From: an uncultured bacterium
GTDB lineage: Bacteria; Chloroflexota; Anaerolineae; J036; Brachytrichaceae
Reading direction: 5' to 3'
DNA length: 33,597 bases
Assembly: GCA_903921365.1 (NCBI GenBank)
Contig: CAIXPS010000434.1
Coordinates: 1-33,597, forward strand
Shown here: positions 9,095-27,689 of the stretch, in pieces
Layout of the letters: the number at the start of each line of letters is the position of its first letter
How positions within the stretch are numbered: position 1 is the first letter of the stretch
Position numbers and translations under genes: made by a program
The notes under the pieces: model-generated
The model's database searches: none
The model's input: only the letters and a program-made list of their open reading frames with translations
Told to the model about the DNA's origin: nothing

Positions 9095-9104
9095 GGCACA
9101 ACTA

Positions 9105-10031
9105 ATGCAGACCATGAAAGCCACAACATGTTCGCCGCAGAGCGCGGCATACGTTCGGAAATTGCGCGAATCGCCCGCATTTGGCGCGACAGGCTTCGAT
9201 TTCGCCGGGCTGCGCGAGGGCATGGCGACGCGGCGCGAGCCGGTCGACGCGTCCATCCGCTGCGCCCGTGTCGATATCAACGGCATGCCGGGCGAATGGG
9301 TGATCGCGCCCGGCGCGGATATCAACATCCGCTTGCTGTACCTGCACGGCGGCGGTTTCATCTCGGGTTCAAGCGAGTTCTATCTCGCGTTAGCCGGGCG
9401 CATCTCGGCCGCGGCGCGTTGCGCTGTTCTGCTGCCAGACTATCGGTTGGCGCCCGAACACCCCTTCCCGGCCGGGGTGGATGACAGTATCCGGGCGTAT
9501 GAGTGGCTGCGCATTACTGGTCCAACCGGGCCCGCGCGCGCCAGAGCCATTTTCATTGCAGGCGACTCAGCCGGCGGCGGGCTTACATTGGCTACCTTGC
9601 TGGCACTGCGAGATCGTGGGCAACCCTTGCCCCTCGCCGCCATCGCGTTGTCGCCCTTCGCCGACCTGACGCTGACCGGCGAGTCGATCCGATCCGAGGG
9701 CGCACTCGACCCGATCATGCACCCCGGTTGCCTGCCCGACTTTGTTAAGCTCTACGTCACCGATGCTGATGTGCGTCACCCGCTCGCGTCACCCGTCTTT
9801 GGTGATTACAGCGGCATTCCGCCGCTGCTCATCCAGGTTGGCGAGCACGAGATCATCCGCGATGACAGCTTCCAGACCGCGGCGAAAGCGCGCGCCGATG
9901 GGGTAGACGTGCAGTTGGAAGTCTGGCCGGGCATGTTCCACGTGTTCCAGTCGCACGAGCCCCTGCTCCCCGAGGGCGTGGAAGCGGTCGAACACATCGC
10001 CAGCTTCATGCGGTCATGCATGGCGGAGTGA
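9105..10031 (+). CDS. HSL-type alpha/beta hydrolase (esterase)
   Basis: 308 residues. The oxyanion motif HGGGF is at about 81-85, the nucleophile elbow GDSAGG at about 153-158 (Ser155), and the catalytic His in GMFHVF at about 279. The acidic residue lies in the GEHEIIRDDS segment (about 247-255). This is the hormone-sensitive-lipase family of carboxylesterases, cytoplasmic, typically acting on short acyl esters such as acetylated sugars. ATG at 9105 with AAGG about 8 nt upstream; earlier in-frame codons overlap the preceding gene and are not homologous. It probably forms an operon with the GH43-like and DUF2690 genes. Its stop is 8 bp from the end of the convergent enolase-family gene. Confidence 0.85.
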   Translation: MQTMKATTCSPQSAAYVRKLRESPAFGATGFDFAGLREGMATRREPVDASIRCARVDINGMPGEWVIAPGADINIRLLYLHGGGFISGSSEFYLALAGRISAAARCAVLLPDYRLAPEHPFPAGVDDSIRAYEWLRITGPTGPARARAIFIAGDSAGGGLTLATLLALRDRGQPLPLAAIALSPFADLTLTGESIRSEGALDPIMHPGCLPDFVKLYVTDADVRHPLASPVFGDYSGIPPLLIQVGEHEIIRDDSFQTAAKARADGVDVQLEVWPGMFHVFQSHEPLLPEGVEAVEHIASFMRSCMAE

Positions 10032-10039: not shown

Positions 10040-11155
10040 TCATTCGCGTGACACACGAAATCGCTGCAATCGCTCTTCGTCCCAGTCGATCCCGAAACCG
10101 GGGGCGTCGGTCAGATGCCACATCCCGTTTTCGATGACCGGCTGTGTCGCGCGGAGTTGCCAGAAACCGACTGTATCGGCCTCCATCGGCGATTCCTCGG
10201 TCATCCACCCGCCCAGCGCGCCCAGTAACGGCGCGTGAATGTCTGGAAAGTAGTGCGGAAAGATGGGGATGCGGTGTTCAAGCGCGCGGCTGACGCCCTG
10301 GATATACCCCGTAACGCCCAACTGGTGAGTTGCATCGGGGCGCAGGATGTCGATCCCTGCGCTCAATTGCTGCACCGCATCCGGCGACGACAACACCTCG
10401 CCAAACGCGATGGGAATATTTGTGCTGCGCGCCATCTCCAGCGCCTGCTGCCACTCGACACCCGGCAACGGGTCTTCGAGAAATGCAGGCGAATAGCGTT
10501 CAACGCTGCGCCATGCGGCCACCGCCTGTTTTGGGGTGTCAAAGACGGCGTTTGCGTCCAGCCCGATCAGCGCTTTCTCACCCGCAACCTCGCGCAATGC
10601 GGCCACGCGTTGAACGTCGAGGGCTTTGTCTGCGCCAAACGGCATCTTGAAGCGGGTGTATCCGGCCTTAACCAGCGCCTTGGCCTCAGCGCGCAGGACA
10701 CTGAGTTGATCACCCTGCCGGTAATAACCCATGATCGCGGCGCACGGGATGTGCTGCTGCCGTCCGCCCAGAAGGCGCCATAGCGGAACGCCGAGGACGC
10801 GCGTCATCACATCCCACAATGCGATATCGACGACAGCCAGCGCGCGCGCGAACAACCCGGTATCGCCGACCATGCGCGTCGAGTCACGCGCTGCCTGCCA
10901 AATCGCGCGGATTTCGCCGATGGAGCGGCCTGTTGTGAACGGCGTGATCTGGCGATCTACAACGGTTTCGATGTTCGCGCCGCGCGTCAGCCCGAAGCCC
11001 GTGCCGGTATGCCCGCCGGCCGTGGCGCGGACGAAGACAAACTCGCGCGAGGTGATTAATGAGCCGATGGCGTAGATCGGCTGCGCCAATGGAACCGAAA
11101 CGCGAAACGCTTCGACGGAATCGATGGGCGTGGACAGCAGGGAGGGATTGTTCAT
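10040..11155 (-). CDS. mandelate racemase / muconate lactonizing-type dehydratase (enolase superfamily)
   Basis: 371 residues from the ATG at 11155. The capping domain (VEAFRVSVPLAQPIYAIG) precedes a modified TIM barrel with metal ligands at Asp200 (GLDAN), Glu227 (FLEDP) and Glu253 (FGEVL). A base Lys170 is in RFKMPFG, and a candidate His301 or His307 is in the PHYFPDIHAPLL strand. Family members dehydrate or epimerise acid sugars via enolate intermediates. The start overlaps the preceding gene's stop as ATGA, so the two are translationally coupled; the longer GTG start is unlikely. It is the last gene of the long minus-strand array, where it could dehydrate sugar acids derived from the glycans. 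Confidence 0.85.
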   Translation of the reverse strand: MNNPSLLSTPIDSVEAFRVSVPLAQPIYAIGSLITSREFVFVRATAGGHTGTGFGLTRGANIETVVDRQITPFTTGRSIGEIRAIWQAARDSTRMVGDTGLFARALAVVDIALWDVMTRVLGVPLWRLLGGRQQHIPCAAIMGYYRQGDQLSVLRAEAKALVKAGYTRFKMPFGADKALDVQRVAALREVAGEKALIGLDANAVFDTPKQAVAAWRSVERYSPAFLEDPLPGVEWQQALEMARSTNIPIAFGEVLSSPDAVQQLSAGIDILRPDATHQLGVTGYIQGVSRALEHRIPIFPHYFPDIHAPLLGALGGWMTEESPMEADTVGFWQLRATQPVIENGMWHLTDAPGFGIDWDEERLQRFRVSRE

Positions 11156-13161
11156 TCGAATTGCCCGGTTTCCCACACAACGGGATCCTTGTATCGCTCC
11201 AACAGCAGTTCAATCACAGTCGCGTGCGACCAGTTGTAATCAGGGAAACCGATGCGATCACGCGCATTCCAGCCTTCGCCTGTGGCGGAGGCGTAGTTCT
11301 CGTGAAACCACGGCGTCCGCTGCAGCATCGCCAGCAAACGATCGGCCGTCAACTCGGCTTCGGCGTGATAACCGGTTTTCCAGAGCGTCTGGATCATCCA
11401 ATACACCACATGCGGCCAGATGCGACCACGCCAGTACCCTTCGGGGTCATATTGCGGATGGTCATAAGACACGCTGGGAAAGGGCAATGGGCGGAAGAAC
11501 TCATCCGGATTGAGCATATGGCCTTCGACAATCCGCTGCACTTCAGATGGAGGCAACGGCACGCCGGCCCATAGTGGCAGGAACATATTCGGGTTCTTCA
11601 CACCGCTGAACTTCTCATGGGTTCCTTCTCGCACATCGAAGAACATTGCATCGTCCGGGAAGTACATGGTGTCGACGATGAGTTGGGCGAGATGAGCCGC
11701 CTTTGCGCGCCACTGCGCTGCCTCTTTGCTCAGCCCCAGCACCTCGGCCATATTGGCGAGACAACGCATTTCGACAACGAAGAACGCATTGAGATCAGGT
11801 GATTCGATACCCGCTACTGGCTCATTCCCCTGCGGCCGGTGATACACGGGATCAAAGCGCGGGTCATTGTCGCCGATTTGCCCCGCGTTGTAGAACTGCG
11901 CCAGTCCGCGGGATGAACTGTGATACTTGAACCAGAAATTGCAGTAGCCGGCCAGACCGGGATAGACTTGCGATATCCACGCGCTATCACCACTGCGCTG
12001 GTAGGTCGACCACGCCGCCCAGCTCATAATCGGCGCCTGCCCCTCGCCGGCGCGGTGAGTGTCGCACAATGTGCCGGGTAATCCGCCGCGTGGGCTTGCA
12101 TTGTCCACAAAGCATTGGATCGCCTCCTGGCATAGCATGGGATCGAACTCGCGCGCGCCGATGCAACTAAAGGAGGTATCCCAGAAGAACGCGATTGCCA
12201 GCAAATCCTTGGTGGTCCAGGGTATCCGGCGGTCTCCGCAATATCCCCCTTCCCCCTGGATGAACAAGCTATTGAGTCCCAGGATCGCATGTGCATACAT
12301 GCGCTCAGCCGTGGCATTGCCGGCATACCGGGCTGGTAGCGCTGAAGCATGGCGCAATAGGCCGCGAATTCGACGCGTTTCCTGCGCGATGGACCCGGCT
12401 TCTGATGTCCTGGTCACGCAAGCATGGTGCGCCGCGCGCGCGCGCCCGCGATTCAGACCAAAACCCATGGAGACTGTAATCTGTGAAACGCCTCCGGCAT
12501 CCAACTCGATCGAACGATCGGCGAGATCGCTTAAGCAGACCAGTTCCAGCGATGTCTGGGGCGCCCCGGCGACGAAATTCCTGACCCACTCCACATTCCG
12601 CCCATGCTCCATGTGTTGAAACAGGGTTGACCAAGAACCCGTTGGCTCGCCGTCAATGCTGACAATATACCCGGTTCCTTCGGCGAAAAAACTGCCGGCC
12701 GCGCCAAGCGGGAATGCTTCTGTCCAGTTCGGCGACTCGCTTTTGCCGGGGAAATCAAATGCCAGATTCAACCGGCGCGGTCGATCCGCCAGATTTCGCA
12801 CTTCGAACTGCACTGCCAGCGCGTTACGGGACGGCCATGCCGCAGCCCCCTTCAACTCAAGATCGCTCCCTCGGTCGACTTCAATTACCTGGTCAGGCCG
12901 ATACACGCGCAAGGCCAGCGCCAGAGGCAACTCATGACCGCCCTCGTGGATATGCCATGTCAACAGACTGCCCGTGATCTCCGTGCCTCCCCAACCGACC
13001 AGCGCTTCGAGTCGCTGCAAGCCTATGGCCTGTGGATTAGTCCAGGTGAGCGCCAGGTATGAATGCCTGTCGCTCCAACCCGCCGAAGGGTGCGTGTAAG
13101 GAACGAGGTTATCGAGATCGACTGTATCTGCCCAGGACAATGTGGGCGTGTCAAGATGCAT
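11152..13161 (-). CDS. GH63/GH37-like (alpha/alpha)6 glucosidase
   Basis: 669 residues. An N-terminal beta-sandwich (about 1-260) precedes an (alpha/alpha)6 barrel with the hallmarks of trehalase/GH63 enzymes: IPWTTKDLLAIAFFWDTSF, IGDNDPRFDP with the likely acid Asp, ESPDLNAFFVVEM, GYWRGRIWPHVVYWMIQTL and WFHENYASATGEGW with the likely base Glu, ending DYNWSHATVIELLLERY. Such enzymes invert alpha-glucosidic or alpha-mannosidic linkages, for instance in glucosyl- or mannosylglycerate. No signal peptide, so probably intracellular. ATG at 13161 with GGAGG about 7 nt upstream. Its end is coupled by ATGA to the enolase-family gene. Confidence 0.8.
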   Translation of the reverse strand: MHLDTPTLSWADTVDLDNLVPYTHPSAGWSDRHSYLALTWTNPQAIGLQRLEALVGWGGTEITGSLLTWHIHEGGHELPLALALRVYRPDQVIEVDRGSDLELKGAAAWPSRNALAVQFEVRNLADRPRRLNLAFDFPGKSESPNWTEAFPLGAAGSFFAEGTGYIVSIDGEPTGSWSTLFQHMEHGRNVEWVRNFVAGAPQTSLELVCLSDLADRSIELDAGGVSQITVSMGFGLNRGRARAAHHACVTRTSEAGSIAQETRRIRGLLRHASALPARYAGNATAERMYAHAILGLNSLFIQGEGGYCGDRRIPWTTKDLLAIAFFWDTSFSCIGAREFDPMLCQEAIQCFVDNASPRGGLPGTLCDTHRAGEGQAPIMSWAAWSTYQRSGDSAWISQVYPGLAGYCNFWFKYHSSSRGLAQFYNAGQIGDNDPRFDPVYHRPQGNEPVAGIESPDLNAFFVVEMRCLANMAEVLGLSKEAAQWRAKAAHLAQLIVDTMYFPDDAMFFDVREGTHEKFSGVKNPNMFLPLWAGVPLPPSEVQRIVEGHMLNPDEFFRPLPFPSVSYDHPQYDPEGYWRGRIWPHVVYWMIQTLWKTGYHAEAELTADRLLAMLQRTPWFHENYASATGEGWNARDRIGFPDYNWSHATVIELLLERYKDPVVWETGQFE

Positions 13162-13188
13162 AGTTGCCTCCGGTAGGATTCTGATCAG

Positions 13189-14208
13189 CTACGCCGCGCC
13201 AAGTTCGCGCGCCAGCGCCTGTATCTCTTCCCAGGTGCGCTCAGGCAGTTGGACACCGTGTTCAAGCCGGTATGCGCGGGTTTTGCGCTCGGGGTCGCCT
13301 GGCATCAACACGGCATCGACGCCCGGTTTCGGGGGCGCGGCCCTGATGGCGCCATAAAGGCGTTCCACCTGATCCGTAAACTGGTCGGGCGATGTAAAGG
13401 CTTCGATCTTCAGCGCCATCATGAGTGTGCCATTGCCGCCGTCGAAGTCGGGGAGCGCCGATGGACCCGTCCCGGACAGGGCGCCGCCGATGAGTTCGCA
13501 CATCAAACTGAGGCCATATCCTTTGTGCAGCCCGAAAGGCAACAGCGCGCCGCCATTGAAGTAGTCGTTCGGGTCGGTGGCGGCGTTGCCCTCCTTGTTA
13601 ATAATCAGCCCCGGCGCCACTTCGGCGCCCTTATCACGCGCGACCATCAACTTGCCTTCAGCCACGCCGGATGTGGCAAAGTCAAGCAGAATCGGGTTCT
13701 CGCCGGGGGCGCGCGGAACCGAATAGGCCATCGGATTGGTGCCCATCATGCGGGTGCGCCCGCCAAACGGGGCGACGCCCGGTCCGACGTTGGCCATGGC
13801 GATGCCGACGCAGCCGGCCCGCGCAATCATGTCGGTGTATTCGCCCAGCCGGCCTAAATGGTTGCCATGCGCAATGGTGACTGCGCCGACGCCATGCTGT
13901 TCCGCAAGCGCAGCTGCTGTGCGCGCAGCCAGTTGCGCAGCCGGCTGGCCCCATCCATACAGCCCATCGACGATCGACATCGCGCCAAAGTGACGCGCAA
14001 CGATAGCGCGCACTGCGGGCTTGATGCGGCCCTCGCGCACCCAGTTGATGTATGGCATCAACCGCAGGACGCCGTGCGAATCGTGACCCAGCAGGTTCGA
14101 CTCGACCAACGAATGGACGACCAATTGCGCGAGATCAGCAGGCGTGCCGGCGCGTTCCAGAATGGCGCAACCGACCTGTTCGAGTTGTTCGGGTGTAAAG
14201 GTTAACAT
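13189..14208 (-). CDS. malate/L-lactate dehydrogenase-like (LDH2/MDH2) oxidoreductase
   Basis: 339 residues. The family pattern is complete: SLVESNLLGHDSHGVLRL with the catalytic-region His, GWGQPAAQLAARTA, VTIAHGNHLGRLGEYTD, VGPGVAPFGGRTRMMGTNP and LPFGLHKGYGLSLMCELIGG. These NAD(P)-dependent enzymes reduce or oxidise 2-keto/2-hydroxy acids (YlbC, YiaK, ComC relatives) and have a fold unlike classical LDH. The start is the ATG at 14208 (MLTFTPEQLEQVG), which matches the family start; the long upstream frame overlaps the epimerase gene and is spurious. It sits 46 bp after the epimerase gene and 27 bp before the GH63-like gene, consistent with catabolism of sugar acids. Confidence 0.88.
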   Translation of the reverse strand: MLTFTPEQLEQVGCAILERAGTPADLAQLVVHSLVESNLLGHDSHGVLRLMPYINWVREGRIKPAVRAIVARHFGAMSIVDGLYGWGQPAAQLAARTAAALAEQHGVGAVTIAHGNHLGRLGEYTDMIARAGCVGIAMANVGPGVAPFGGRTRMMGTNPMAYSVPRAPGENPILLDFATSGVAEGKLMVARDKGAEVAPGLIINKEGNAATDPNDYFNGGALLPFGLHKGYGLSLMCELIGGALSGTGPSALPDFDGGNGTLMMALKIEAFTSPDQFTDQVERLYGAIRAAPPKPGVDAVLMPGDPERKTRAYRLEHGVQLPERTWEEIQALARELGAA

Positions 14209-14254
14209 CTTGATTTGGTTGAGTGCTGAAAGGTTGGAGTGAATACAATACGGT

Positions 14255-15238
14255 TCAGGACAAAATCCTGTTGACGTCGATCTTGCCGGCGCTGATTGCA
14301 TTGCGGAATATATCGATGGTCTGGCGCGCGCCGTCTTCCAGCGGCGTCCAGTGCAGAGGGCCAATCGCGCTTTCAAGCGGCGCCCCGTCGACATGCGGCG
14401 GCGTGGCCAGCGGCACGGGGTTATAGGTGATTCTCCCGGCCATCTCAGGCGCAACAGCATTGATGACTTGCACCGTGGCCTCAATTGACGATTCGAAACC
14501 GCCGAGGTTGTACACCGTCGCGCCATCAACGGCCGCGCGCGCCGCCTGGATAAACGCGCGCGCGGTGTCATCGGCATATTGAAACACGATCGAGCCGCCG
14601 TACGAGATGTGATACGACCGCCCCGCTGCAGCTGCCAGCATGGCCTTTGTCGGCGTGGACGACATGCCTTGATCTCGCCCCGGGCCATAGATTACGTAGG
14701 GGCGTATGCCGATGCTGCGCACGCCCGACTCCAGCCAGTAGATGCGCGCCGTGCCTTCGTTCGCCTGTTTAAAAACGCCGTACAGGTTGAGCGGGAACAG
14801 CGGGGAGTCGTGGCGCAACACACCACCGGGGTACAGGTCCATGCCGCCATATACGCCGACGGAGCTTGCGTAAGCCAGCCCTTGAATCTGTGATTTGTGC
14901 TGGCGGACCGTTTCGAGCACCACGGTTGTGCCGACGACGTTGACCTTTGCGCCGAGGGTGGGATTGGCGCGCACGAACGGCACCTGCAGCGCCGCCAGGT
15001 GGATGATGTGTGTGATGCCGTTTTCGGCAACGGCGTGGTCAAAGGCTTCCGCATCGGTAATATCGCCTTGAATGAAGTTGACCTTCGCCAGTGCCTCATC
15101 GCTCATGATCAGCCGCAACCGGTGCGGCTCGCCGGGCAGGTCGTAAGTCCACACCGGTGCGCCTTCGTCAATCAGGCGCTTAACCGTCCACGCGCCGATG
15201 CAACCCAGCGCACCGGTCACCAGATATCGTTCAGCCAT
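14255..15238 (-). CDS. NAD-dependent epimerase/dehydratase (extended SDR)
   Basis: 327 residues from the ATG at 15238, which has GGAGG about 8 nt upstream. The Rossmann motif is TGALGCIGAW (about 8-17), followed by HLAALQVPFV, the Ser of YASSVGVYGG and the YGVFK catalytic Tyr-Lys pair, then RPYVIYGPGRDQGM. Extended SDRs act on nucleotide sugars or oxidise free sugars such as uronates. Its place beside an LDH2-type enzyme and an enolase-family dehydratase suggests sugar oxidation rather than cell-wall synthesis, but this is inference. Confidence 0.82.
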   Translation of the reverse strand: MAERYLVTGALGCIGAWTVKRLIDEGAPVWTYDLPGEPHRLRLIMSDEALAKVNFIQGDITDAEAFDHAVAENGITHIIHLAALQVPFVRANPTLGAKVNVVGTTVVLETVRQHKSQIQGLAYASSVGVYGGMDLYPGGVLRHDSPLFPLNLYGVFKQANEGTARIYWLESGVRSIGIRPYVIYGPGRDQGMSSTPTKAMLAAAAGRSYHISYGGSIVFQYADDTARAFIQAARAAVDGATVYNLGGFESSIEATVQVINAVAPEMAGRITYNPVPLATPPHVDGAPLESAIGPLHWTPLEDGARQTIDIFRNAISAGKIDVNRILS

Positions 15239-15264
15239 TTTTATTCCTCCGCTCAAGATGTTGT

Positions 15265-17793
15265 CTATTTGGTCGCAGACCATGTCGCGGTTGTCGTGCC
15301 AATACATTGCGGAACACTCAGCACATCGAATGAGGTCATGGAAATGCTTCCCACGGCATTCGCGGCCGAGGTAAATGTCCCGGTGATGACATACCGGAGC
15401 GTCGCGCCAGTTCCGTCTATCGTGAACGAGTTCCCATTCAGATTTAAGGCAGGATAGATCTGCTGGTCGAGGTCATACACGCAACCCACATTGTTGAAGC
15501 TGAAAATGAACCGGTCCACCCGGTTCTGGGAAACGGTTATTCCAATGGCGCGGTTTTGCGACGTCGTCCCGCCCCATATACCGTCGTAGGGGAGTGCAAA
15601 ACTCACGGCCTGAACGTTGCTCCAACCGCTTGACTCACTGGAATTGCTGGCCATAACGCGATAGTAATACGTCCCGGCAGGTTTGTTCTGTGTCGACCAT
15701 GATTGATCTGTCCCGATGTGCGCCGTAAAGATATTTGTAAAAGTGGGTGACTGACTTTCCTGTAATATGTAAATCTCGGCAAGGGGCGTCGCATTCCACG
15801 ACACTGTATACGTGCCATTGGCATGCGGATCATCAACTGGATTGAGGACAGGCGCGTCTGGTATCGGCGGATAGTGGCTGAGAACGAACGGGACGTAAAC
15901 ATGCGCGCGATTCACGAAAACTGTCAGGCTTGACGTATTCGATGCGGGTTGGAGGTCAACCGCAGCAGCACTGACAGTGACACCATTTACGGCCGATATC
16001 GCGGGACCTGGTCGCACCATCAGCGAGATCGTCATCATATTTCCAGCGCTCAACGTGCCAAGCGTGCAGGTGACGACGTTGTTGTTTTTACTGCATCCTG
16101 TCGATCCGGCGCCATTTATCGATATAGCCTGGAGGGATAGGCTGGCGCCCACAGGCAGCGTGTCGGTAAACCATACCCCCGTCGCATCAACGGGCCCTGC
16201 GTTGCTGATGACGATGGTATAGGTCAATGGCTGCGCAACCATTGCGGGCAACGGAGCCGCCTGTTGCGCGATGGAAAGATCGGCCACAGGAAGCACAGCA
16301 ACCGATGTCGTCGTAATGACAGCGCCAAGGGTGTTCGAAACCGTCAACGTCGCCGTGTACAAACCCGGCATAGCATAGGTGTGGCTGACGACAAGGTCAG
16401 TTGCGGTGATGCCATCGCCGAAGTCCCATGTTGCGGTGACAGGCCATGTCACGCTTGTCACAGTTGGCGTGAAATATACGGACTCTTGCATCAACGCCGG
16501 GCTGGAGACCGCCACCGCTAGATCCACCCCTGTGAGGTTACCGCTGGCATAGACCGTTCGGGTGACGTTCAACCCGCACACAGCCATAGACACGATATAC
16601 GAACCTATTGATGAATAGGTGTGTGTGACGACCTTACTCGCGAGCACAGCAGCGCCGTCGCCAAAGCCCCACATTTTCGTGAATTGATCCGTATTCCCCG
16701 CTGTTGTGCCAGTGAAAGCAAACGATGCGTTGATCAAAGCCACCGTGGATTGGGCGTCGATGCTGCCTGATGCGGGGATGTACTGCAACCCAATATCATC
16801 GATGTACAGATTGTTGCCGAAGTCGCTGATCCCCAGCAACCCTATGCGTATGTTGTTCTGGCCGGAATGACCCGGTAGATCCACCGTATGCAGCGACCAG
16901 TGGTTTGGCGCGACGCCGTCGTAGCGGGAGAATGACGCGCCAGCGATATCCACATACGTGCTACCGCCGTCCGCCGAAAGCTGCACCTGCAGCCGGTCGG
17001 CTTGCGCGTTCGCACCGGGCGAGTCAGAATCGTGATACATCCAGAACGTCAACCGCGGCGTGTAATCCGCTGGGAAGTTCAGCGCGCGCGTTGCCAGCCG
17101 GGCAGAATCCCCGCTGGTTGCGAAGTATGCGTTCAAGCTTGCGACGGCCGCTCCATCATAAGCAGGCGCGCCTGGATACCCCAGCGTCCCTGAAATACCG
17201 AGGCTCCAAATAGCAGTGGTTCCAGTGACGACTTTGATCGACCAGTCTGGAGGTGGGAATGTCGGCGTGTATATACCGGCGCCCCCCTCGAATCCCTCTA
17301 CAGGCGCTGCAATGACGGTGACGGGTTGTGCGATCACCGGACTGGAGATAATCGCCGTATTCGTCACCGGCCATTGGCAAGTGGTTACGGTGACCGGCAC
17401 GGTGATCACTGCGAACATCCCAGGCAATATCGCGCCGTTCCAACTCACGGACGTGCCTGTGTAGACAATGCTTCCTTGCGTGGCAGTCAGTCCCTGCGGC
17501 AGCAATGCCAGATCGAGCGGCAACGGGTCGATAACCGATACGCCAAAGGCTTTGTCAACCCCACTGTTGCTGACGATGAGGGTATAGGTGATTACGTCAC
17601 CGGGAGCAAAGAGAGTGCTGACCAGAACCTTACTCGATGTGCTCAGCGTGATGCCACTCGTCGAGGCTGGCGCAGCGACAACTCGATCGCCGCGCGAAGC
17701 CGGCACAGCCGCTAGCGGCGTTGAACTTGTCAACGCATACGAGACGATGAGACTCATGGCGGCCAGACCGATCAATGGAACGATGCTTCGCAT
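15265..17793 (-). CDS. secreted multidomain surface protein with DUF11, PKD and FN3-like domains
   Basis: 842 residues. The N-terminus MRSIVPLIGLAAMSLIVSYA is a signal peptide or membrane anchor. Domains in rough order: DUF11 repeat (50-165; DVITYTLIVSNSGVDKAFGV), a MAM/jelly-roll-like domain (185-360; LTFWMYHDSDSPG, WSLHTVDLPG), two PKD domains (365-520; MWGFGDGAAVL, ATWDFGDGITATDLVVSHTY), a second DUF11 (525-650; LTYTIVISNAGPVDATGVWF), an FN3-like domain (665-740) and a C-terminal beta domain (745-842). No catalytic motif is seen; it is probably an adhesion or glycan-contact protein. ATG at 17793 has AAGG at a good distance; the TTG upstream is less likely. It lies inside the glycan array, 11 bp after GH35, but has no sorting signal that I recognise. 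Confidence 0.8.
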   Translation of the reverse strand: MRSIVPLIGLAAMSLIVSYALTSSTPLAAVPASRGDRVVAAPASTSGITLSTSSKVLVSTLFAPGDVITYTLIVSNSGVDKAFGVSVIDPLPLDLALLPQGLTATQGSIVYTGTSVSWNGAILPGMFAVITVPVTVTTCQWPVTNTAIISSPVIAQPVTVIAAPVEGFEGGAGIYTPTFPPPDWSIKVVTGTTAIWSLGISGTLGYPGAPAYDGAAVASLNAYFATSGDSARLATRALNFPADYTPRLTFWMYHDSDSPGANAQADRLQVQLSADGGSTYVDIAGASFSRYDGVAPNHWSLHTVDLPGHSGQNNIRIGLLGISDFGNNLYIDDIGLQYIPASGSIDAQSTVALINASFAFTGTTAGNTDQFTKMWGFGDGAAVLASKVVTHTYSSIGSYIVSMAVCGLNVTRTVYASGNLTGVDLAVAVSSPALMQESVYFTPTVTSVTWPVTATWDFGDGITATDLVVSHTYAMPGLYTATLTVSNTLGAVITTTSVAVLPVADLSIAQQAAPLPAMVAQPLTYTIVISNAGPVDATGVWFTDTLPVGASLSLQAISINGAGSTGCSKNNNVVTCTLGTLSAGNMMTISLMVRPGPAISAVNGVTVSAAAVDLQPASNTSSLTVFVNRAHVYVPFVLSHYPPIPDAPVLNPVDDPHANGTYTVSWNATPLAEIYILQESQSPTFTNIFTAHIGTDQSWSTQNKPAGTYYYRVMASNSSESSGWSNVQAVSFALPYDGIWGGTTSQNRAIGITVSQNRVDRFIFSFNNVGCVYDLDQQIYPALNLNGNSFTIDGTGATLRYVITGTFTSAANAVGSISMTSFDVLSVPQCIGTTTATWSATK

Positions 17794-17804
17794 GGAACTG
17801 CCTT

Positions 17805-19568
17805 TCAACCCAACAGTGCCTTATCCAGGAACTCGACCCCGTGAGTATTCTTAGATAGTTCCCCTTGCTTCCCAAGTTCGAGCACGATCAGCTCATTCCG
17901 TCCGCGCTGCAGCTTGGGCGCCGGCACGTACAGCGTGTGCTGCGGCCCTTTCTCCTCCCAGTGCCAGCCAAGGTTAAACCCGTTGATCCATGCCAGTCCG
18001 CGCGTCCAGCCGGGCAGCGCGAGCCAGGTATCCGCCGGATCATCGACCTCGAAGAAGCCACGGTGAAACGCTGGCCCGTCCACTGCGCCACCATAGCACA
18101 GCCTGCTCAGGTTGGTGAGCGGCAGCGGGTAAATCGTCCAGTCATACAGGAACTGGTTCGCCAGTCGCACACCCTCGGTGATGCCTTTGCGGTCGTGCAA
18201 CTGCGGGCCGTAGTTCACGCGCCCCATGCACTCGACCAGGATGTCGATCTGATGTGCGCCCGGCCCGAACGCGAGCGGCAGAGATCGAGCCTCTACAGGC
18301 ATGTTGCGGTCGATCAAGCCCTGATAGACGCCATCGACAAATATTTGTGCGCGGTCATGCGCGTCCTGCAACACGAGCGGCTGTTGCTCGTGCGGCCCCT
18401 GTAGCATCGCACGATACAGGATCAGCCCGGTGTTTTGCCCAAGCGTCTCCATGGGGACGGGCGCGGGGCGATGCACCGGACGCGCCAGCCGACCGAGGTT
18501 GGCGAGCAATGGCGCGCTCTCCAATAGCTCCACCTTGCCATAGGCGCGCTTAAGCACAGGCGGAAACGACGGCAGCGCGGGAACGGCTTCGTACTTTGCG
18601 ATCACCTCGCGACAGACGTAGTATTTCGGCGTCGGGTCGCCGGCTTCATCGAGCAACGCATCGTAATCGTAACTGGTGACGTCAGGCTGGTACTCCGTCG
18701 CGGTGTGGTTCGCGCCGGACATGAAGCCAAAGTTTGTTCCGCCATGGAACATATAGAAGTTGACCGACGCGCCGGCAGCGAGCATCGTGTCGAGGTCGCG
18801 CGCCACATCATCAACGGGACGGGTATGGTGATGTTCGCCCCAGTGATCAAACCAGCCGCACCAGAACTCGCCGCACATCAACGGCCCATTGGGCTGGTAT
18901 TCGCGCAACTTGGCAAACGCCTCGGTCGGGTGATTGTCGAAGTTGACGACCTTGAAGATGTCGGGCAGCGTGCCGCCCTGCAACATGCTGTCGGTCGGGC
19001 CGTCGGAGGTGAACAACAGGCAGTCAATCCCGCGTTTGCCCATGCCATCGGCCAGATGGCGCAGGTAGGTCTTGTCGTCGCCATAGCTGCCGTACTCGTT
19101 CTCGACCTGCATCGCCACAATCGGCCCGCCGCGCGCCGCCTGCAAGGGTTCGAGCCGCGGCAACAGTGCATCGAAGAAACGATCCACTGCTTTCAGATAT
19201 GGGGCATACGAGCAACGCAACTGCATCATGGGGTCGCGCAATAGCCATGCAGGCAGCCCGCCCAGTTCCCACTCGGAGCAGATGTACGGGCCGGGGCGGA
19301 CGATGGCGTTCAGCCCAAGCTCCGCGGCGATTTCGAGGTAGCGCGCGAGGTCGAGTTGGCCGGTAAAGTCGAACTGTCCTGGGCGAGGCTCGTGCAGGTT
19401 CCACGCCACGTAGGTCTCGACCGTGTTCAATCCCATCGCCTTGAGTTTGGTCAGGCGGTCGCGCCAATAGGTTGGCATGATGCGGAAATAGTGCATCGCG
19501 CCGGCCAGAATCCGCGCCGGGACGCCGTTCTGGATGAAGTGATCGCCGAGGATGGTTATTGGTTGCAT
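17805..19568 (-). CDS. GH35 beta-galactosidase
   Basis: 587 residues. The TIM barrel starts at once (LAGAMHYFRIMPTYWRDRL) and carries the GH35 signature GGPIVAMQVENEYGSYGDD with acid/base Glu158. The nucleophile Glu234 is in MCGEFWCGWFDHWG. NFYMFHGGTNFGFMSGAN is also typical. The C-terminal jelly-roll domains end in LAWINGFNLGWHWEEKGPQ. GH35 enzymes release terminal beta-galactose with retention. There is no signal peptide, so it acts on imported oligosaccharides in the cytoplasm. Length is normal for the family. ATG at 19568. A 117-bp gap separates it from the GH36 gene; it shows no promoter or terminator I can support. Confidence 0.93.
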   Translation of the reverse strand: MQPITILGDHFIQNGVPARILAGAMHYFRIMPTYWRDRLTKLKAMGLNTVETYVAWNLHEPRPGQFDFTGQLDLARYLEIAAELGLNAIVRPGPYICSEWELGGLPAWLLRDPMMQLRCSYAPYLKAVDRFFDALLPRLEPLQAARGGPIVAMQVENEYGSYGDDKTYLRHLADGMGKRGIDCLLFTSDGPTDSMLQGGTLPDIFKVVNFDNHPTEAFAKLREYQPNGPLMCGEFWCGWFDHWGEHHHTRPVDDVARDLDTMLAAGASVNFYMFHGGTNFGFMSGANHTATEYQPDVTSYDYDALLDEAGDPTPKYYVCREVIAKYEAVPALPSFPPVLKRAYGKVELLESAPLLANLGRLARPVHRPAPVPMETLGQNTGLILYRAMLQGPHEQQPLVLQDAHDRAQIFVDGVYQGLIDRNMPVEARSLPLAFGPGAHQIDILVECMGRVNYGPQLHDRKGITEGVRLANQFLYDWTIYPLPLTNLSRLCYGGAVDGPAFHRGFFEVDDPADTWLALPGWTRGLAWINGFNLGWHWEEKGPQHTLYVPAPKLQRGRNELIVLELGKQGELSKNTHGVEFLDKALLG

Positions 19569-19685
19569 GGGATTGTCATTCGAGCAGTAGCCTGATGGCT
19601 TATAAGGAACTGTTTGTTCATCACGGGCCGATTATCCATCGCTGCGCTATTGGATGCAACACGCAGGCGCGTGATGACGCCGCTC

Positions 19686-21899
19686 TCACGCTACCGGCTT
19701 CACCACAACCACCGTCGCAGCAGAATTGCGCGTCCCGTTCGCAGCAGGGATGCCGGCATCGAAACCCGTCGTCATCAGTTCCGCGCCGGAAACCACAACA
19801 GGCGCGGCGTCGACGATCAACGCGCGTTGCACGAGGTACGACCCGGTGGGATTGAGGTCGCGCAGCATCCAGCGGGGCGCGCCCGATGTCACGCCCAGAC
19901 GATAGACGAACACAAGGCTGGTCGATTCAGTGGGCGACTGCAATTGCATCGCAACCCAGCCAGTGCGGTGGGTCAATGGTTCGGGCGGGGTCAGCAGATG
20001 CGCGATCGAACCGGTGATGAACTCGCGCCACTGCTTGTAGAACGCGATGTGCTCGCGCACTAAGGCTTGCACCGCTGCTGGCAAGCCAGCCAGGTCGCCG
20101 CTGAATCCCAGCATGCCAGGCATGGCGGCCAGGAGCGCGTAGGCCGGATCGACTGTTTCGGAGGGTTCCCACAAGGCGCCCTGTGGTGTGAGAATCGTGG
20201 CGGGGGAATCGGCGACGGATAAGCCATAACGCGGGAGAGCCTGACCGGCCGAACGGAGCACTGCCCAACGGGTGAGTCGGCCCGGTGGCAGGCGCAGCCA
20301 CGCGCCCTGCGCAATGCGGATGACGTCGGTGGGGTTGACCGTGTCGCTCAGGAAGTGGCCGTCCACGTGCGTCAGCGTCGCGAGGTCGCCGCGCATCGCG
20401 CCGCTGGAGCAGCCCTCGAAGAACGCGCGCGGATAGGTTGCGCGAATATCATCGAGCATGCAGTGCCAGGCGGATGTGTAGTCGGCCAGTTCGGCGCAGG
20501 CGCTTGCCGTGTCGGCATCGAGCGTGAAGTTAAAGTCGAGTTTCATCCACGCCAGATCGTAGGTCTCGACGAGGCGCGCGATCTCACTGCGCAGGTACTG
20601 ATACGCCGCGGGTTGCAGCAGGTCAATGCGCGCCGAGACGCCAGTGGAGATGAACCATTCCGGGTGTTCCGTTCGAATCGGCGCCTCTGGGCCGAAGCGT
20701 TCGGGCTCCATCCAGATGCCAAAGCCCAACCCCGCTGCGCGCACTTCGGCGGCGAAGTCGCGCATGCGGCCGCAGAACGCGGCCTCGGTTTTCTCGCGCC
20801 AGTCGCCGGCCTGCGCAAACCAGTTTGGGCCGCCCGCGCCATACCAGCCGGCATCGATGACAAACACCTCGCAACCCGTTTCACGGGCGGCCGCGAGTTG
20901 GGCGCGCAGGCGCGAGAGTTCAAGGATGTCGAACTGCTCGAACCAGGTGTTGTACACAATCGGGGCAAATGGCTTCGCGCCCGTGAAGTGATGCGCCAGC
21001 AGGTACCGGTGCAATGCGGGCGCGCCGAGGTGCGGCTCGCCCTGCGGCAGCGGTTGGAACAGTATCTCGGGCAGTGCAAACGTCTCACCGGGTTGCAGGA
21101 CACGCTGCAGGTTCTCATCGGCCAGGCCGAGTTCGATGACTGGACACGGCATCTCGCCGCCTTCGGCCACCGGGTTGACCCGGATCGTCCAGTTGCCGCG
21201 CGGGAGAATGTGAACGGCCAGCCCGTGATCGGCGTGAAGCGGGCGCAACACCAGATACGGGGTTGCGTCCTCCGTCGTGCGTCCCCAGGCGTGCCGCAGC
21301 GTCAGCCCCTGAACTAAAGGTTGCCATGCGCCCTGGTTCTCGTGGCTCCAGCGGCTGCGCTGGGTGTAGCACTCATACTGGCCGCGCGACAACGCCAACC
21401 GCGCCAGACAACGCGAGAGCGTCACGGGAGATGACGCGGTGTTCTCAATTGTGTCGCGCCGGCTGATAATTCCAGTTGTGGCATTGGAATGGGGCAGACG
21501 CGGGGATGTGTCCCTACCGTCGTCGGATTGGGGCAGACGCAAGGCCGTGCCCCTACCGTTGTTGGGTTGGGGCAGACGCAAGGCCGTGCCCCTACCGTCG
21601 TCGGCCTGCCAGGTGGTTGTGAGGCGTAGCCCGCTCGCGCCGATGCGCCACCGGCAGGTCAGCGCGGCCGGCGCTTCGTCGATTGACTCCAGCACAAGGT
21701 CTGCGCCTTCGTAGCGCCGCCCATCCGCCTGAATCAGCGCCACACCGAGCGTCCGGGGCTGCGACCCTGCATCCGTCAAGTCGGTAGTTGTGACGCCGCA
21801 CATGCGCGTGAACCACACACGCCCATCCTGGCGCACATACTGCGTGCTCGCGCGGGGCTTGTCAACTAACATCGTTGTCGTTGTCGCTGTAGCGGTCAT
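19686..21899 (-). CDS. GH36 alpha-galactosidase with an in-frame repeat insertion
   Basis: About 737 residues. The GH36 barrel has FVIDAGWYGAGGPNW, GFGIWMEPERFGPEAP, the nucleophile Asp455 in WMKLDFN and the acid/base Asp519 in HFLSDTVNPTD. It hydrolyses alpha-galactosides such as raffinose-type or galactomannan side chains, in the cytoplasm. I place the start at the ATG at 21899, since GAGG lies 6 nt before it; the ATG at 21905 would overlap that site. Within the N-terminal beta-supersandwich, residues about 100-138 are three 13-residue repeats (DDGRGTALRLPQ) encoded by a 39-bp tandem DNA repeat, apparently an insertion in a surface loop between two normal strands (TTTWQAD and GIISRRD). The active site is not touched. 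Confidence 0.9.
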   Translation of the reverse strand: MTATATTTTMLVDKPRASTQYVRQDGRVWFTRMCGVTTTDLTDAGSQPRTLGVALIQADGRRYEGADLVLESIDEAPAALTCRWRIGASGLRLTTTWQADDGRGTALRLPQPNNGRGTALRLPQSDDGRDTSPRLPHSNATTGIISRRDTIENTASSPVTLSRCLARLALSRGQYECYTQRSRWSHENQGAWQPLVQGLTLRHAWGRTTEDATPYLVLRPLHADHGLAVHILPRGNWTIRVNPVAEGGEMPCPVIELGLADENLQRVLQPGETFALPEILFQPLPQGEPHLGAPALHRYLLAHHFTGAKPFAPIVYNTWFEQFDILELSRLRAQLAAARETGCEVFVIDAGWYGAGGPNWFAQAGDWREKTEAAFCGRMRDFAAEVRAAGLGFGIWMEPERFGPEAPIRTEHPEWFISTGVSARIDLLQPAAYQYLRSEIARLVETYDLAWMKLDFNFTLDADTASACAELADYTSAWHCMLDDIRATYPRAFFEGCSSGAMRGDLATLTHVDGHFLSDTVNPTDVIRIAQGAWLRLPPGRLTRWAVLRSAGQALPRYGLSVADSPATILTPQGALWEPSETVDPAYALLAAMPGMLGFSGDLAGLPAAVQALVREHIAFYKQWREFITGSIAHLLTPPEPLTHRTGWVAMQLQSPTESTSLVFVYRLGVTSGAPRWMLRDLNPTGSYLVQRALIVDAAPVVVSGAELMTTGFDAGIPAANGTRNSAATVVVVKPVA
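21491..21607. repeat. 39-bp tandem repeat, three units, in frame within GH36
   Basis: GGGGCAGACG recurs at 21491, 21530 and 21569, exactly 39 bp apart, each unit continuing to a CCCTACCGT string. The second and third units are nearly identical and the first has diverged. A GGGGCA and TGCCCC pair in each unit makes it partly palindromic. It resembles dispersed intergenic repeats of the GTAGGGGCACGGC type. Confidence 0.8.
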
Positions 21900-21941
21900 G
21901 TTCATCCTCACTTAATTTCACCCAGTCTCACTCAATGTTTG

Positions 21942-21960
21942 CCGGCAGTTGCACTGCCGG
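21942..21960. other. GC hairpin between URO-D and GH36 genes
   Basis: CCGGCAGT, TGC, ACTGCCGG is a perfect 8-bp stem with a 3-nt loop in the 74-bp gap. No T-run follows on the minus strand, so it is more likely an mRNA-processing or stabilising hairpin than a full terminator. Confidence 0.35.
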
Positions 21961-21973
21961 TGTGAATAACGGG

Positions 21974-23128
21974 TCATTTTGAGAAGGCGGGCACATCCCA
22001 GCCCCAGTTCATCCGTTTTGCGTATTCCGTCGCGATTGGCCGCAGCGCCTGGCATAGCGCCTCCGGCTCATCGCCGGGGGCGACCGTGATCACCGGCACG
22101 ACGATCACATCCGGCGCCATCAGATCCATAACCTCGCGGTACCAGTCCACCGGCGATCTGCCCCCGTCAAAGAACAGGTAGATGAACGCCCGCCGGCGCA
22201 ACGATTTCTTGAACTTTGGCAAATCGGCGTGGCTGTAAGTATCAGAAAGGTCGAGGCTGCGCGGTGAGAGCGGGTGCGCCACATATGCGGCGTGACATGG
22301 GTTCGGGCCGCAGTTATGCAAGCCTCCTGCGCCAAATTCCGCGAAGATGCGGGCATGATACGGCGCGGAGAACTTGGCGTAGATGTCGGGGCCGAATCCC
22401 GCCGACACGTCGTCGCTCACATGCCCCTTGCAGCCTTCCGGGAACCACACGTCCTCGTAATCCGTAGTCGTGATGTTGGCCTCGCCGCCGGCCGCCGCGA
22501 TGCCGGCGCGAATCGTCGCCGCATACAGCGTCTGGATTTTACCGAGCAGCGTGTGCAGTGCATCCGGTTGCTCGTAGAACGCCAGCATCAACTCGGTCAT
22601 GCCAAGCAGGTCGGCGGCCACGTTGACGCCGCCGGCTGCATCAAGCAGCGACACGGGGATAAGACCCTCACCCGCTTCGGCAAACAGGCGGATTCGACGC
22701 AACCCCTCGGGCAACCAACCGTCGCGCGCAGGATCAGGGGACTGCAGAAGCGCAACCTGTTCGGGCAGATTTTCGAGCGCCAGGACGCGATTACGAATAC
22801 CGGGCGTTTGATCGGTGCTATCACCCCAGTAGTACTCTGCGCCGAAGGCACTGGCGAGGCACGAACATCCCACGTCCGGGCGCATTGCCGGGATGCAGTC
22901 GCTGGAAGGGGCGCGCGCCCACGTCGCCAACGCGTTCGCGAGCGCGGCGCTCAATTGCTTGTCGCCATCCTGAAACTGCTCGCGCAGGCTATACGATGAA
23001 GGCACGGACACCCGCGCGTCGACCGGGATGCGCTCAAGGCGTTCACCCGCGAATAAGCGGCGATAAACATCCTTGCGGCGCGCGAGTTCGTCGCTAACCC
23101 AGTGCGAATGAGTGATTGGAAGCGCCAT
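21974..23128 (-). CDS. uroporphyrinogen decarboxylase-like (URO-D superfamily) protein
   Basis: 384 residues with the URO-D/MtaA-type TIM barrel. SLLDAAGGVNVAADLLGMTELMLAFYEQPD, split over two helices, is a typical central part. YEDVWFPEGCKG and GGLHNCGPNPCHAAY follow, the latter matching the HxCG zinc-site region of corrinoid methyltransferases. SLDLSDTYSHADLPKFKK and APDVIVVPVIT end the barrel. The tetrapyrrole decarboxylase is unlikely because the context is glycan breakdown; proteins of this COG0407-like group often transfer methyl groups. Here it might remove methyl ethers from sugars, but no corrinoid protein gene is in the window. ATG at 23128 with no strong Shine-Dalgarno; 17 bp after the sialidase-like gene. 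Confidence 0.75.
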   Translation of the reverse strand: MALPITHSHWVSDELARRKDVYRRLFAGERLERIPVDARVSVPSSYSLREQFQDGDKQLSAALANALATWARAPSSDCIPAMRPDVGCSCLASAFGAEYYWGDSTDQTPGIRNRVLALENLPEQVALLQSPDPARDGWLPEGLRRIRLFAEAGEGLIPVSLLDAAGGVNVAADLLGMTELMLAFYEQPDALHTLLGKIQTLYAATIRAGIAAAGGEANITTTDYEDVWFPEGCKGHVSDDVSAGFGPDIYAKFSAPYHARIFAEFGAGGLHNCGPNPCHAAYVAHPLSPRSLDLSDTYSHADLPKFKKSLRRRAFIYLFFDGGRSPVDWYREVMDLMAPDVIVVPVITVAPGDEPEALCQALRPIATEYAKRMNWGWDVPAFSK

Positions 23129-23145
23129 GGTGGTTCAAGATGTTT

Positions 23146-24315
23146 TCAGGATGTCAGACTTCTCCGAGAAGTCTGACATCTCATCACCCATACGCTCTTC
23201 GACTCATCCAGGTCGTCATCCGGGATTGGATTCCAGCCATAACCAACCCGGTCATAGATCACGAGCAGCGTGCATTCGTCCAGAGCCATGAGTTCGGTGT
23301 AGCACGACGAGTAGCCGGTTATACCAGCCTTGCGCATGTTCTCCGCCGTTCCCCACGCCGTGCGCGAATCCGGCGTGATGCGGTCGCGCGGTGCGCAAGC
23401 GGCGTTATGCGCTGCGATGATATCAATCTCCTGCCAGGCGGCCCCGACACGGTCGGTGTTAAACCACACGCTGATGCCCGGACGTCCGCCCGACAGCGCC
23501 ACGATGCCGTCATGCAATACGGCCAGGCTCGGCTCGACCGACCCGGGGCCTGCGATGTTGGTGGGCTTCGTCCAAGTGCGCCCATCGTCAGCGCTGAACG
23601 TCTGTCCATACGAGACGAACGATGCCAGCCGGAACACGCACATCAGGCGGCCATCCGCCAGCCGGCACAGCGCTGATTCGCACGGCCCTTCCCCGCCGGC
23701 TAGATCGCACTCGGGGCCGGCGATGATCGCGCGCACCTGCCAGCGATACCCATCGGCCGATTCAGCCAGCACGAGCGAATAGCGCGAGTCGCCCTCGAAT
23801 GTCCCGTACAGCGTGCCGAGATAGATGCCATCAATGCTGCGCGCCACTTGCCCGTTGAACACAAATCCCGTAATGCCAGCATCGGGCAGCGGCGACTTGG
23901 TGGGCTTCGACCAACCGCTCACCTCAACGCCGGAAGCGCGCATGTCCAGCACCCCTTGTGGCGACAAGACATTGCACGGCGCGCCGATGGCGTGCGACGC
24001 GCGCTCACGCAGGTAATAGGGCAGGATCACAACGCTGCCATCCGATTGAATCAGGTGAGCCAACCCGCCATCGCCGATCACGCGAGCTTCTTCCCATGTA
24101 AGACCACTATCGCGCGAGCGAGACAGGTAGTTCACTGAGTTCGAAGCGTGGATATCCGCATACGCCGACATCACCGCCCATAGCACGCCGTTGGGTTGAC
24201 GGATCAGTGAGGGGAACCAACAGAACCAGCGGCTGCGCTTGACAAGGACCGGCTCCGAGACCGTCACATCCAGACCGTCTATCGACACAACCGAGTGTGT
24301 TTTCCATTCTGGCAT
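23146..24315 (-). CDS. sialidase-like (BNR/Asp-box) beta-propeller protein
   Basis: 389 residues from the ATG at 24315, 7 nt after the stop of the decarboxylase gene. Asp boxes are seen at about 67-74 (SRDSGLTW) and 241-248 (SADDGRTW), with a degenerate one at 186-192 (SADGYRW). This is the six-bladed propeller of exo-sialidases and of other BNR proteins. The catalytic arginine triad cannot be assigned by eye, so activity on sialic acid is unproven. No signal peptide. The last residues (CQTSRRSLTS) and the stop region are encoded by a dispersed palindromic repeat, so the native C-terminus was replaced or extended. Confidence 0.75.
   Translation of the reverse strand: MPEWKTHSVVSIDGLDVTVSEPVLVKRSRWFCWFPSLIRQPNGVLWAVMSAYADIHASNSVNYLSRSRDSGLTWEEARVIGDGGLAHLIQSDGSVVILPYYLRERASHAIGAPCNVLSPQGVLDMRASGVEVSGWSKPTKSPLPDAGITGFVFNGQVARSIDGIYLGTLYGTFEGDSRYSLVLAESADGYRWQVRAIIAGPECDLAGGEGPCESALCRLADGRLMCVFRLASFVSYGQTFSADDGRTWTKPTNIAGPGSVEPSLAVLHDGIVALSGGRPGISVWFNTDRVGAAWQEIDIIAAHNAACAPRDRITPDSRTAWGTAENMRKAGITGYSSCYTELMALDECTLLVIYDRVGYGWNPIPDDDLDESKSVWVMRCQTSRRSLTS
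23150..23180. repeat. GATGTC...GACATC palindrome, copy 1
   Basis: A perfect inverted repeat, arms GATGTCAGACTTCTC and its complement, with one central base. It overlaps the 3' end of the sialidase-like gene. The same core recurs at 28401-28443. Confidence 0.9.
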
Positions 24316-24322
24316 GGTGTGT

Positions 24323-25318
24323 TTACGAATGTGGAATGACGCACGCAGGCCCGCCCACGCCGCTTTCAATAACATCGGTCACGCCTTCAATCTGGCGCAC
24401 GGCCTGTTTTACCTGTTTGACCGCATGCGCTTCGCAGATACAGTGAACGTTCGGCCCGGCATCGATCGTGAAGGCTACCGGCACACCGCTGTCGCGCAGA
24501 TCGCGCACGGCGTCGATCACGCTGAGCGTGGCGGGCACCCAGTAAATCACCGACGGCTGCGAGGTCATGATGACGCTGTGCATCATCAGCGCATCCTGCT
24601 CGATCACCTCGGCCAGCAGGGGAAAATCACAATTGGCGATGGCCTGTTCGCACAGGCTGAGCCGGCGCGGCGCATCGGCCAGGCGGGCCGCCTGAAAGGG
24701 CGAGCTGTCGGCCAGCGCATGTCCCTCGGTCGAGCCGACCGTTTTGTGCCGGCTTGCCACGATGGCGATGACGTCCATGAGCGGCCAGTGCGACTGTGTG
24801 GCAATACTGGTTGCATAGCCATCATGCCAGGCTACGAACCCGCCGGGGACGCTGCGGCAAGCCGAGCCGCTGCCCAGGCGCGCCAGGCTGGATAGTTCGG
24901 GCTCGCTCTTTTTCAGGCCGAGTGCGGCACACGCGGCGATAGTGAGCGCGGCAAATCCAGACGCCGACGACGCGATGCCCACTCCCATCGGGAATGTGTT
25001 GTTGGACATCACGCGCGCCTTCGATCGGCATTCGGACAAGCCGCGTCGCTCGCCGCAATCAATATCGGCGATGCGGTCAAGATGGTGCACCACGCGCTCA
25101 TACGCCTGCGCATTAACTTTGTGGCCGTCAATGGACACTTCATCGCGGGTAAGCAGCGGATCAAACTCCACCGTCGTCGTCGTGCGCAAGTCGCCAAGAT
25201 TGAACGAAAGCGAGTCATTGGAAGGCAGTCGTAACGACTGATCACGATTGCCCCAGTACTTGATCAGGGCAATATTTGGGAAAGCAATGGCTGTTGCCTT
25301 TCGCGTTTGCGTATTCAT
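24323..25318 (-). CDS. mvaD: mevalonate diphosphate (or monophosphate) decarboxylase
   Basis: 331 residues. It has the GHMP-kinase-like fold with AFPNIALIKYWGNRD (Lys20), the phosphate-binding PMGVGIASSASGFAAL (about 110-125), RLGSGSACRSVPGGFVAW with the substrate Arg155, and FTIDAGPNVH with the catalytic Asp286. The classical enzyme makes isopentenyl diphosphate from mevalonate 5-diphosphate using ATP. In Chloroflexota such as Roseiflexus a homologue instead decarboxylates mevalonate 5-phosphate, with isopentenyl phosphate kinase completing the path; I cannot tell which applies. ATG at 25318 with AGGTG close upstream. It is the first gene of the glycan array, an unexpected partner, and no other isoprenoid gene is in the window. 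Confidence 0.9.
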   Translation of the reverse strand: MNTQTRKATAIAFPNIALIKYWGNRDQSLRLPSNDSLSFNLGDLRTTTTVEFDPLLTRDEVSIDGHKVNAQAYERVVHHLDRIADIDCGERRGLSECRSKARVMSNNTFPMGVGIASSASGFAALTIAACAALGLKKSEPELSSLARLGSGSACRSVPGGFVAWHDGYATSIATQSHWPLMDVIAIVASRHKTVGSTEGHALADSSPFQAARLADAPRRLSLCEQAIANCDFPLLAEVIEQDALMMHSVIMTSQPSVIYWVPATLSVIDAVRDLRDSGVPVAFTIDAGPNVHCICEAHAVKQVKQAVRQIEGVTDVIESGVGGPACVIPHS

Positions 25319-25575
25319 AGGTCACCTGTCTTCATTGCCGTAACCCTGCATCAAAGCCGCTTCACATCATCATTCACGAAATTCACGAACGAATGGCGAA
25401 CAGATAGCGAACGGATCACGAGCTTACGACATTTCTCACGTCTCTAATGAGAGTGTACCACTGGCTGTATTTGGCGTGACGCGCGCGACGACGATGACGA
25501 CGAGAGTTGCGCGCAGTCTGGCATACAATCGCCATTGTAAAAATATTCACACTCAATGGAAGGCAGACAACACAG
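25319..25575. promoter_or_regulatory. divergent intergenic region mvaD / hyuA
   Basis: The 257 bp between these divergent genes must hold promoters for both the long minus-strand array and hyuA. A TACAAT at 25524-25529 is a candidate -10 for hyuA. CGAAC-type pentamers recur (25376-25412: ACGAAATTC, ACGAACGAA, GCGAACAG, GCGAACGG), which may be operator half-sites. No small ORF or RNA is convincing. Confidence 0.3.
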
Positions 25576-27651: not shown

Positions 27652-27655
27652 AGAT

Positions 27656-27689
27656 TCCCCGGAGATGTCTCGCGAGACATCTCCGGGGA
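27656..27689. repeat. GATGTC...GACATC palindrome, variant between hyuA and vapB
   Basis: A perfect 17+17 bp palindrome, left arm TCCCCGGAGATGTCTCG. Its AGATGTC/GACATCT portion is shared with the 23150 and 28401 palindromes, while the centre and outer parts differ. It ends 26 bp before the vapB start. Confidence 0.85.

Follow-up and report, generated by a model that had tools for sequence, protein, structure and literature searches.

Cytoplasmic enzymes of the alpha- and beta-galactosidase families GH36 and GH35 are found in one run of genes in loci for intracellular galactoside use. In SAR202 Chloroflexota, expansions of the enolase superfamily are reported together with non-phosphorylative sugar use (PMC10444878), and in Route III pathways the cleaving enzymes are hydrolases of the FAH superfamily, with clusters of this type described together with ABC transporters and regulators (PMC6336799). 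The locus analysed here lies in a window of 33,597 bp (the whole stretch of DNA that was studied) from an uncultured bacterium of the Chloroflexota. It is a real and conserved locus of a familiar kind, whose arrangement is unusual and new; pathways of this type have been described before in the Chloroflexota. Compared with the GH36/GH35 galactoside loci, its run contains no galK, galT or transporter gene but oxidative enzymes and a predicted secreted protein with PKD and DUF11 domains instead. With the SAR202 pathways it shares many enolase paralogs and NAD-dependent dehydrogenases, for which kinase-free oxidation and dehydration of sugars has been proposed (PMC10444878); the difference is that here the dehydrogenase candidate is an extended GalE-like SDR, linked to GH36 and GH35, that the genome has 32 rather than 80 enolase paralogs, and that a galactokinase is also present. 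The Route III clusters for L-fucose, L-rhamnose and pentoses (PMC6336799), which bring together dehydrogenases, a sugar-acid dehydratase, an ABC importer and a regulator, are similar too, and relatives of the SDR adjoin FAH hydrolases, whereas the window locus is without an adjoining FAH hydrolase, importer or regulator and has an LDH2-family enzyme and glycosidases. We read it as an accessory Chloroflexota glycan-use locus, in which imported oligosaccharides would be trimmed and a released sugar or acid would be oxidised and dehydrated by an SDR, enolase and LDH2 route, a reading that we regard as an even call.

Layout and conservation of the locus

Ten ORFs on the minus strand make up one run, transcribed from 25318 to 10040. 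The first encodes an MvaD-family diphospho/phosphomevalonate decarboxylase (MVD; 24323..25318; TIGR01240, 239.7 bits against a cut-off of 171), and it is followed by genes for a BNR-repeat sialidase-like beta-propeller protein (23146..24315; PF13088, BNR_2, 5e-13), a URO-D-superfamily protein with an HxCG motif (21974..23128; PF01208, 5e-7), a GH36-family glycosidase (19686..21911; PF02065, Melibiase, 5e-33) and a GH35 beta-galactosidase (17805..19568; PF01301, Glyco_hydro_35, 1e-121), the last two predicted to be cytoplasmic. Then come a surface protein, predicted to be secreted, that has PKD and DUF11 domains (15265..17793; PF01345 and PF18911), an extended SDR proposed to be a sugar or sugar-acid dehydrogenase (14255..15238; PF01370, Epimerase, 1e-31), an LDH2/MDH2-family 2-hydroxyacid/2-oxoacid dehydrogenase (13189..14208; PF02615, Ldh_2, 1e-103), a GH63/MGH1-like (alpha,alpha)6-barrel glycosidase (11152..13161; PF22422, MGH1-like, 8e-46) and an MR-subgroup enolase-superfamily protein, a proposed acid-sugar dehydratase (10040..11155; PF13378, MR_MLE_C, 2e-35). 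The starts at 14208 (LDH2), 15238 (SDR) and 24315 (BNR) were set from domain starts and neighbouring stops. Successive gaps in the order of transcription are 7, 17, 62, 117, 11, 26, 46 and 27 bp, and the last junction, between the GH63-like and enolase-family genes, is a 4-bp ATGA overlap. An earlier note on this DNA had described ten same-strand genes with small gaps, in agreement with the maximum of 117 bp and the single ATGA pair, and each of the classes that it had named (GH36, GH35, GH63-like, sialidase-like, SDR, LDH2 and enolase) was confirmed by Pfam. Co-transcription of the run, as predicted from this layout, is plausible; promoter and terminator scans, which placed no terminator-like site in the gaps, returned fewer sites than shuffled sequence does and were uninformative.

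Two plus-strand genes, absent from the earlier note, adjoin the array at 8144-10031 and are conserved with the locus: a GH43-like beta-propeller glycosidase candidate (8144..9094; PF04616, 31.3 bits, just below the cut-off of 32.2) and an acetylesterase-like alpha/beta-hydrolase (9030..10031; PF07859, 4e-58), which is convergent with the array. Elsewhere in the window, the stretch 2890-7007 holds, close together, genes for a YhcG-type nuclease (its C-terminal domain matched only in part), for a Fic protein and for a short methylase of the HsdM-like kind, the nuclease and the methylase looking truncated; a hydantoinase/oxoprolinase-family protein of 714 aa is encoded at 25507-27651, divergent from the array; and two small overlapping ORFs at 27608-28388 look, by eye, like a PIN-type toxin gene with that of an antitoxin.

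In a sister species of the same genus, nine of the ten array genes (all except MVD) lie within about 20 kb in two blocks, with 62–87% protein identity. One of its contigs carries on one strand the genes for PKD, SDR, LDH2, the GH63-like protein, a DUF4432/aldose-epimerase-like protein and the enolase, next to which are the esterase, the GH43-like protein and GrpB, and then GH36, URO-D and BNR. A second contig has GH35 and then a weakly GH43-like gene, and 141 identical bases overlap the start of the first contig. The kept order is GH35-[GH43-like]-PKD-SDR-LDH2-GH63-like-[DUF4432]-enolase, together with BNR-URO-D-GH36; the two bracketed genes, also of carbohydrate type, are insertions. The BNR protein is 80% identical between the two species, the esterase 71% and the GH43-like protein 91%, so that both plus-strand flanking genes are kept with the nine array genes at 62–91% identity overall. 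With nine of its genes conserved in the sister species, and with the GH43-like and esterase genes travelling along, this is a genuine glycan locus, and the array order, both blocks being conserved, is more than chance. The synteny in relatives to which the earlier note had looked is thus partly found: the nine genes are kept together, but MVD does not adjoin them and the arrangement has changed. Likewise, its term "glycan array" fits a conserved glycan locus, although three of the ten genes (MVD, URO-D-like and PKD/DUF11) are not obvious glycan genes. MVD is the first gene of the run but probably does not belong to the glycan set, since in the sister species BNR is not preceded by it. The MvaD-family protein (24323-25318) scores above the diphosphomevalonate decarboxylase cut-off and falls far short of the one for phosphomevalonate decarboxylase. 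Neither GH35 nor the GH63-like protein had a match in G007-G009, which belong to the same genus, and this makes the locus accessory; a broader search for the GH63-like protein turned it up only in this genome and in that of one sister species.

The two blocks of the sister species are separated and differently oriented. This favours another explanation, in which the locus consists of two units, BNR-URO-D-GH36 and GH35 to enolase, and the SDR-LDH2-enolase trio acts on a substrate other than that of the galactosidases, such as a uronate, anhydro-sugar acid or aldonate that enters the cell in that form. That GH35 stays together with SDR, LDH2 and enolase in the two species speaks against it, and we consider it rather unlikely, with further evidence on both sides in the neighbours of the SDR family and in the enolase-family protein described below.

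Glycosidases, import and the URO-D-like protein

The GH35 protein has its Glyco_hydro_35 domain and both catalytic Glu residues aligned with the solved beta-galactosidase 4mad (6e-211). The GH36 protein, with AgaB as nearest solved relative (7e-29), has the Melibiase domain and both the nucleophile and the acid/base Asp aligned with the solved 4fnq; it matches both a beta-L-arabinopyranosidase model and alpha-galactosidases, and so the sugar that it releases need not be galactose. The GH63-like protein matches YgjK at 8e-16. The BNR protein has zero sequence relatives in the PDB at 0.01, and a search for solved sequence relatives of the URO-D-like protein found none, therefore no substrate can be read from either. 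As judged by hydropathy only, the hydrolases do not begin with a strongly hydrophobic stretch, in line with the claim that they lack signal peptides, whereas the PKD/DUF11 protein, whose gene keeps its place in the sister species, does. The N-termini of the hydrolases are consistent with a need for oligosaccharide import, and a scan of window proteins showed no transporter among those covered.

In the URO-D-like protein, the His, Cys and Gly of the HxCG motif are kept in closer relatives, and the motif is possibly a zinc site of the corrinoid-methyltransferase type. Corrinoid O-demethylases belong to the same superfamily (PMC10418091), and the locus might handle O-methylated galactosides, with the URO-D-like protein helping in demethylation by methyl transfer of the corrinoid type. 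Relatives at 35–37% identity adjoin MttB-family methyltransferases and corrinoid/B12-binding proteins, and a relative with 72% identity has an MttB-family gene on the same contig, which fits such a role as does the conserved motif. No partner corrinoid protein or methyltransferase was seen in the locus or the sister locus, though, and the gene may have come from a corrinoid cluster and changed its role, so that we regard demethylation as very improbable. The window gene probably derives from a cluster of the MttB/corrinoid type. The 72% identical protein is encoded at L136:7517-8641, in a methyltransferase-type cluster from a different family, and this match suggests gene transfer between lineages. 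A literature search on URO-D proteins in glycan clusters found nothing on point.

The SDR, LDH2 and enolase-family proteins

The SDR has an NAD-type Rossmann fold, and Y153 and K157 (YxxxK) and G9, G12 and G15 (GxxGxxG) are invariant in an alignment of 44 family members that are 47–85% identical to the window protein. It is without a characterised close relative. Its predicted structure (pLDDT 94.8) fits UDP-sugar epimerases and L-threonine 3-dehydrogenases equally in a structure search (Z about 34); uronate dehydrogenase was not among the structure matches listed for the model, which excludes nothing. As the fold and the best sequence matches are those of NDP-sugar epimerases/dehydratases, and the genome has a galactokinase, the SDR could be a GalE-like NDP-sugar epimerase, with galactose going through the Leloir pathway and with LDH2 and the enolase as unrelated passengers. 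Against this, it scores 68 bits on the GalE model TIGR01179 (cut-off 262), the L-threonine dehydrogenases, whose substrate is a small free molecule, fit equally well, and the neighbours of the family are sugar-acid enzymes. Moreover, where the solved NDP-sugar enzyme that matches best has its RDF motif, the SDR has VFQ, a mild argument against NDP-sugar substrates. We therefore hold the epimerase explanation to be improbable. The D-erythronate dehydrogenase (DenD) model NF043036 gave 58 bits (cut-off 325), and nothing on point was found in the literature on that enzyme.

The family was sampled in 80 loci, in which genes within 5.5 kb (near) were compared with those in the outer flanks (far). 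FAH hydrolases occur near in 27 loci and far in 2 (p about 1e-4), LDH2 in 15 and 3 (p 0.04), sugar ABC permeases in 18 and 3 (p 0.01), GntR regulators in 19 and 3 (p 0.009) and FGGY kinases in 9 and 0 (p 0.01), and since these binomial p-values ignore genome kinship and several families were tested, only the FAH association is convincing by itself. The enolase (14 near, 13 far) and D-2-hydroxyacid dehydrogenase (23 near, 11 far) are not enriched in these 80 loci. It is thus supported that relatives of the SDR tend to adjoin FAH, LDH2 and sugar ABC genes, as in non-phosphorylative sugar-acid pathways. Most of the 80 loci have no galactosidase nearby, in favour of a separate substrate for the oxidative enzymes; in one locus (L012), however, GH36 is directly upstream of SDR-LDH2, which goes against that explanation. 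A Herpetosiphonaceae cluster (L031) contains GntR, SBP, a GH36-like gene, two permeases, a chaperonin-like gene, D-2-hydroxyacid dehydrogenase, SDR and LDH2. Among the sampled loci, SDR, LDH2 and an enolase of the window type occur together only in this genus.

The Ldh_2 domain spans the whole LDH2 protein (PF02615, 347 bits, positions 2-333 of 333), with 1vbi as nearest solved relative (5e-55). Known enzymes of this family act at C2 of 2-hydroxy, 2-oxo or 2-imino acids, and the window protein may accordingly handle a product such as lactate or glycerate, or an aldonate. Its orthologs in other genera (53–55%) do not adjoin this SDR.

The enolase-family protein is also without a characterised close relative. 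Its best match in the PDB is the 3,6-anhydro-L-galactonate cycloisomerase 5xd7 (4.5e-34), a weak match of 121 bits with many acid-sugar enzymes close behind; this gives some weight to the idea that the trio acts on a substrate of its own, such as an anhydro-sugar acid. The metal ligands D, E and E at the ends of barrel strands 3-5 line up across the window protein and every ortholog, and the His-Asp dyad (strands 7 and 6) is conserved in the orthologs, the His being likely the base from what is known of the family. Of the KxK motif of the mandelate racemase type (strand 2), the first Lys is kept and the second, present in 5xd7, is Pro in the window protein and all aligned orthologs. Some acid-sugar dehydratases also do without the second lysine, and so only a racemase-type site is excluded. 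Orthologs at 48–58% identity adjoin ABC permeases in several genomes (including L121, L123 and L126), not this SDR. In four loci (L121, L122, L123 and L124) enolase relatives adjoin a gene for a bifunctional ATP-sulfurylase/APS-kinase, with a luciferase-like monooxygenase also nearby in L122 and L124; these neighbours are a possible hint of sulfonated sugars.

The proposed route and its meaning

In the reading that we prefer, that of an accessory glycan-use locus, oligosaccharides would enter through a transporter encoded elsewhere and be shortened inside the cell by GH36 and GH35, acting on end residues of the galactose type, by the GH63-like enzyme and probably by the BNR and GH43-like proteins, while the esterase may take off acyl groups. 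The extended SDR would oxidise one released sugar, or its acid, with NAD, the enolase-family enzyme would dehydrate the aldonate, and LDH2 would oxidise or reduce a 2-hydroxy or 2-oxo acid of the SDR-enolase route. Cleavage to pyruvate would fall to an FAH hydrolase or to DHDPS-type or KDPG aldolases elsewhere in the genome. That the three oxidative enzymes work in one pathway, the order of their steps and the identity of the sugar are what we infer. The locus is without a lactonase, KDG kinase or aldolase, and from the De Ley-Doudoroff set it holds only a candidate dehydrogenase and dehydratase, the lactonase-, aldolase- and FAH-family genes being on other contigs. Single-family searches of the genome counted 32 MR/MLE-family genes, a galactokinase above its cut-off, two FAH genes, one of them adjoining an enolase on contig C65, six DHDPS-family and three KDPG-aldolase-family genes and three strong SMP-30-type matches; other enolases are paired with DHDPS-family enzymes on C14 and C16. 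A complete route could therefore be assembled from genes in trans.

The earlier note had proposed that the last genes of the array convert galactose or a related sugar to a keto-deoxy acid without phosphorylation. Galactose as the substrate and a complete route were not borne out: the locus lacks lactonase, aldolase and kinase, the fold of the SDR is tied between two enzyme types, the enolase is without the second MR lysine, and enolases are not enriched near the SDR family; a kinase-free galactose route is also not forced, because the genome has a galactokinase. The proposal may be called reasonable but unproven.

The SDR family is a more interesting object than the galactose proposal. We tentatively suggest, with somewhat more doubt than confidence, that it founds an uncharacterised class of dehydrogenases that oxidise free sugars or sugar acids with NAD and share the fold of GalE and threonine dehydrogenase. 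Such enzymes would be found across the Chloroflexota and marine Gammaproteobacteria, would feed non-phosphorylative routes of the FAH or aldolase type, and would here be coupled to galactosidases. If our reading is true, the locus would connect galactosidases inside the cell with a Chloroflexota route that oxidises sugar and needs no kinase, and knowing the substrate of the widespread SDR family would make many unannotated sugar clusters of this phylum easier to interpret.
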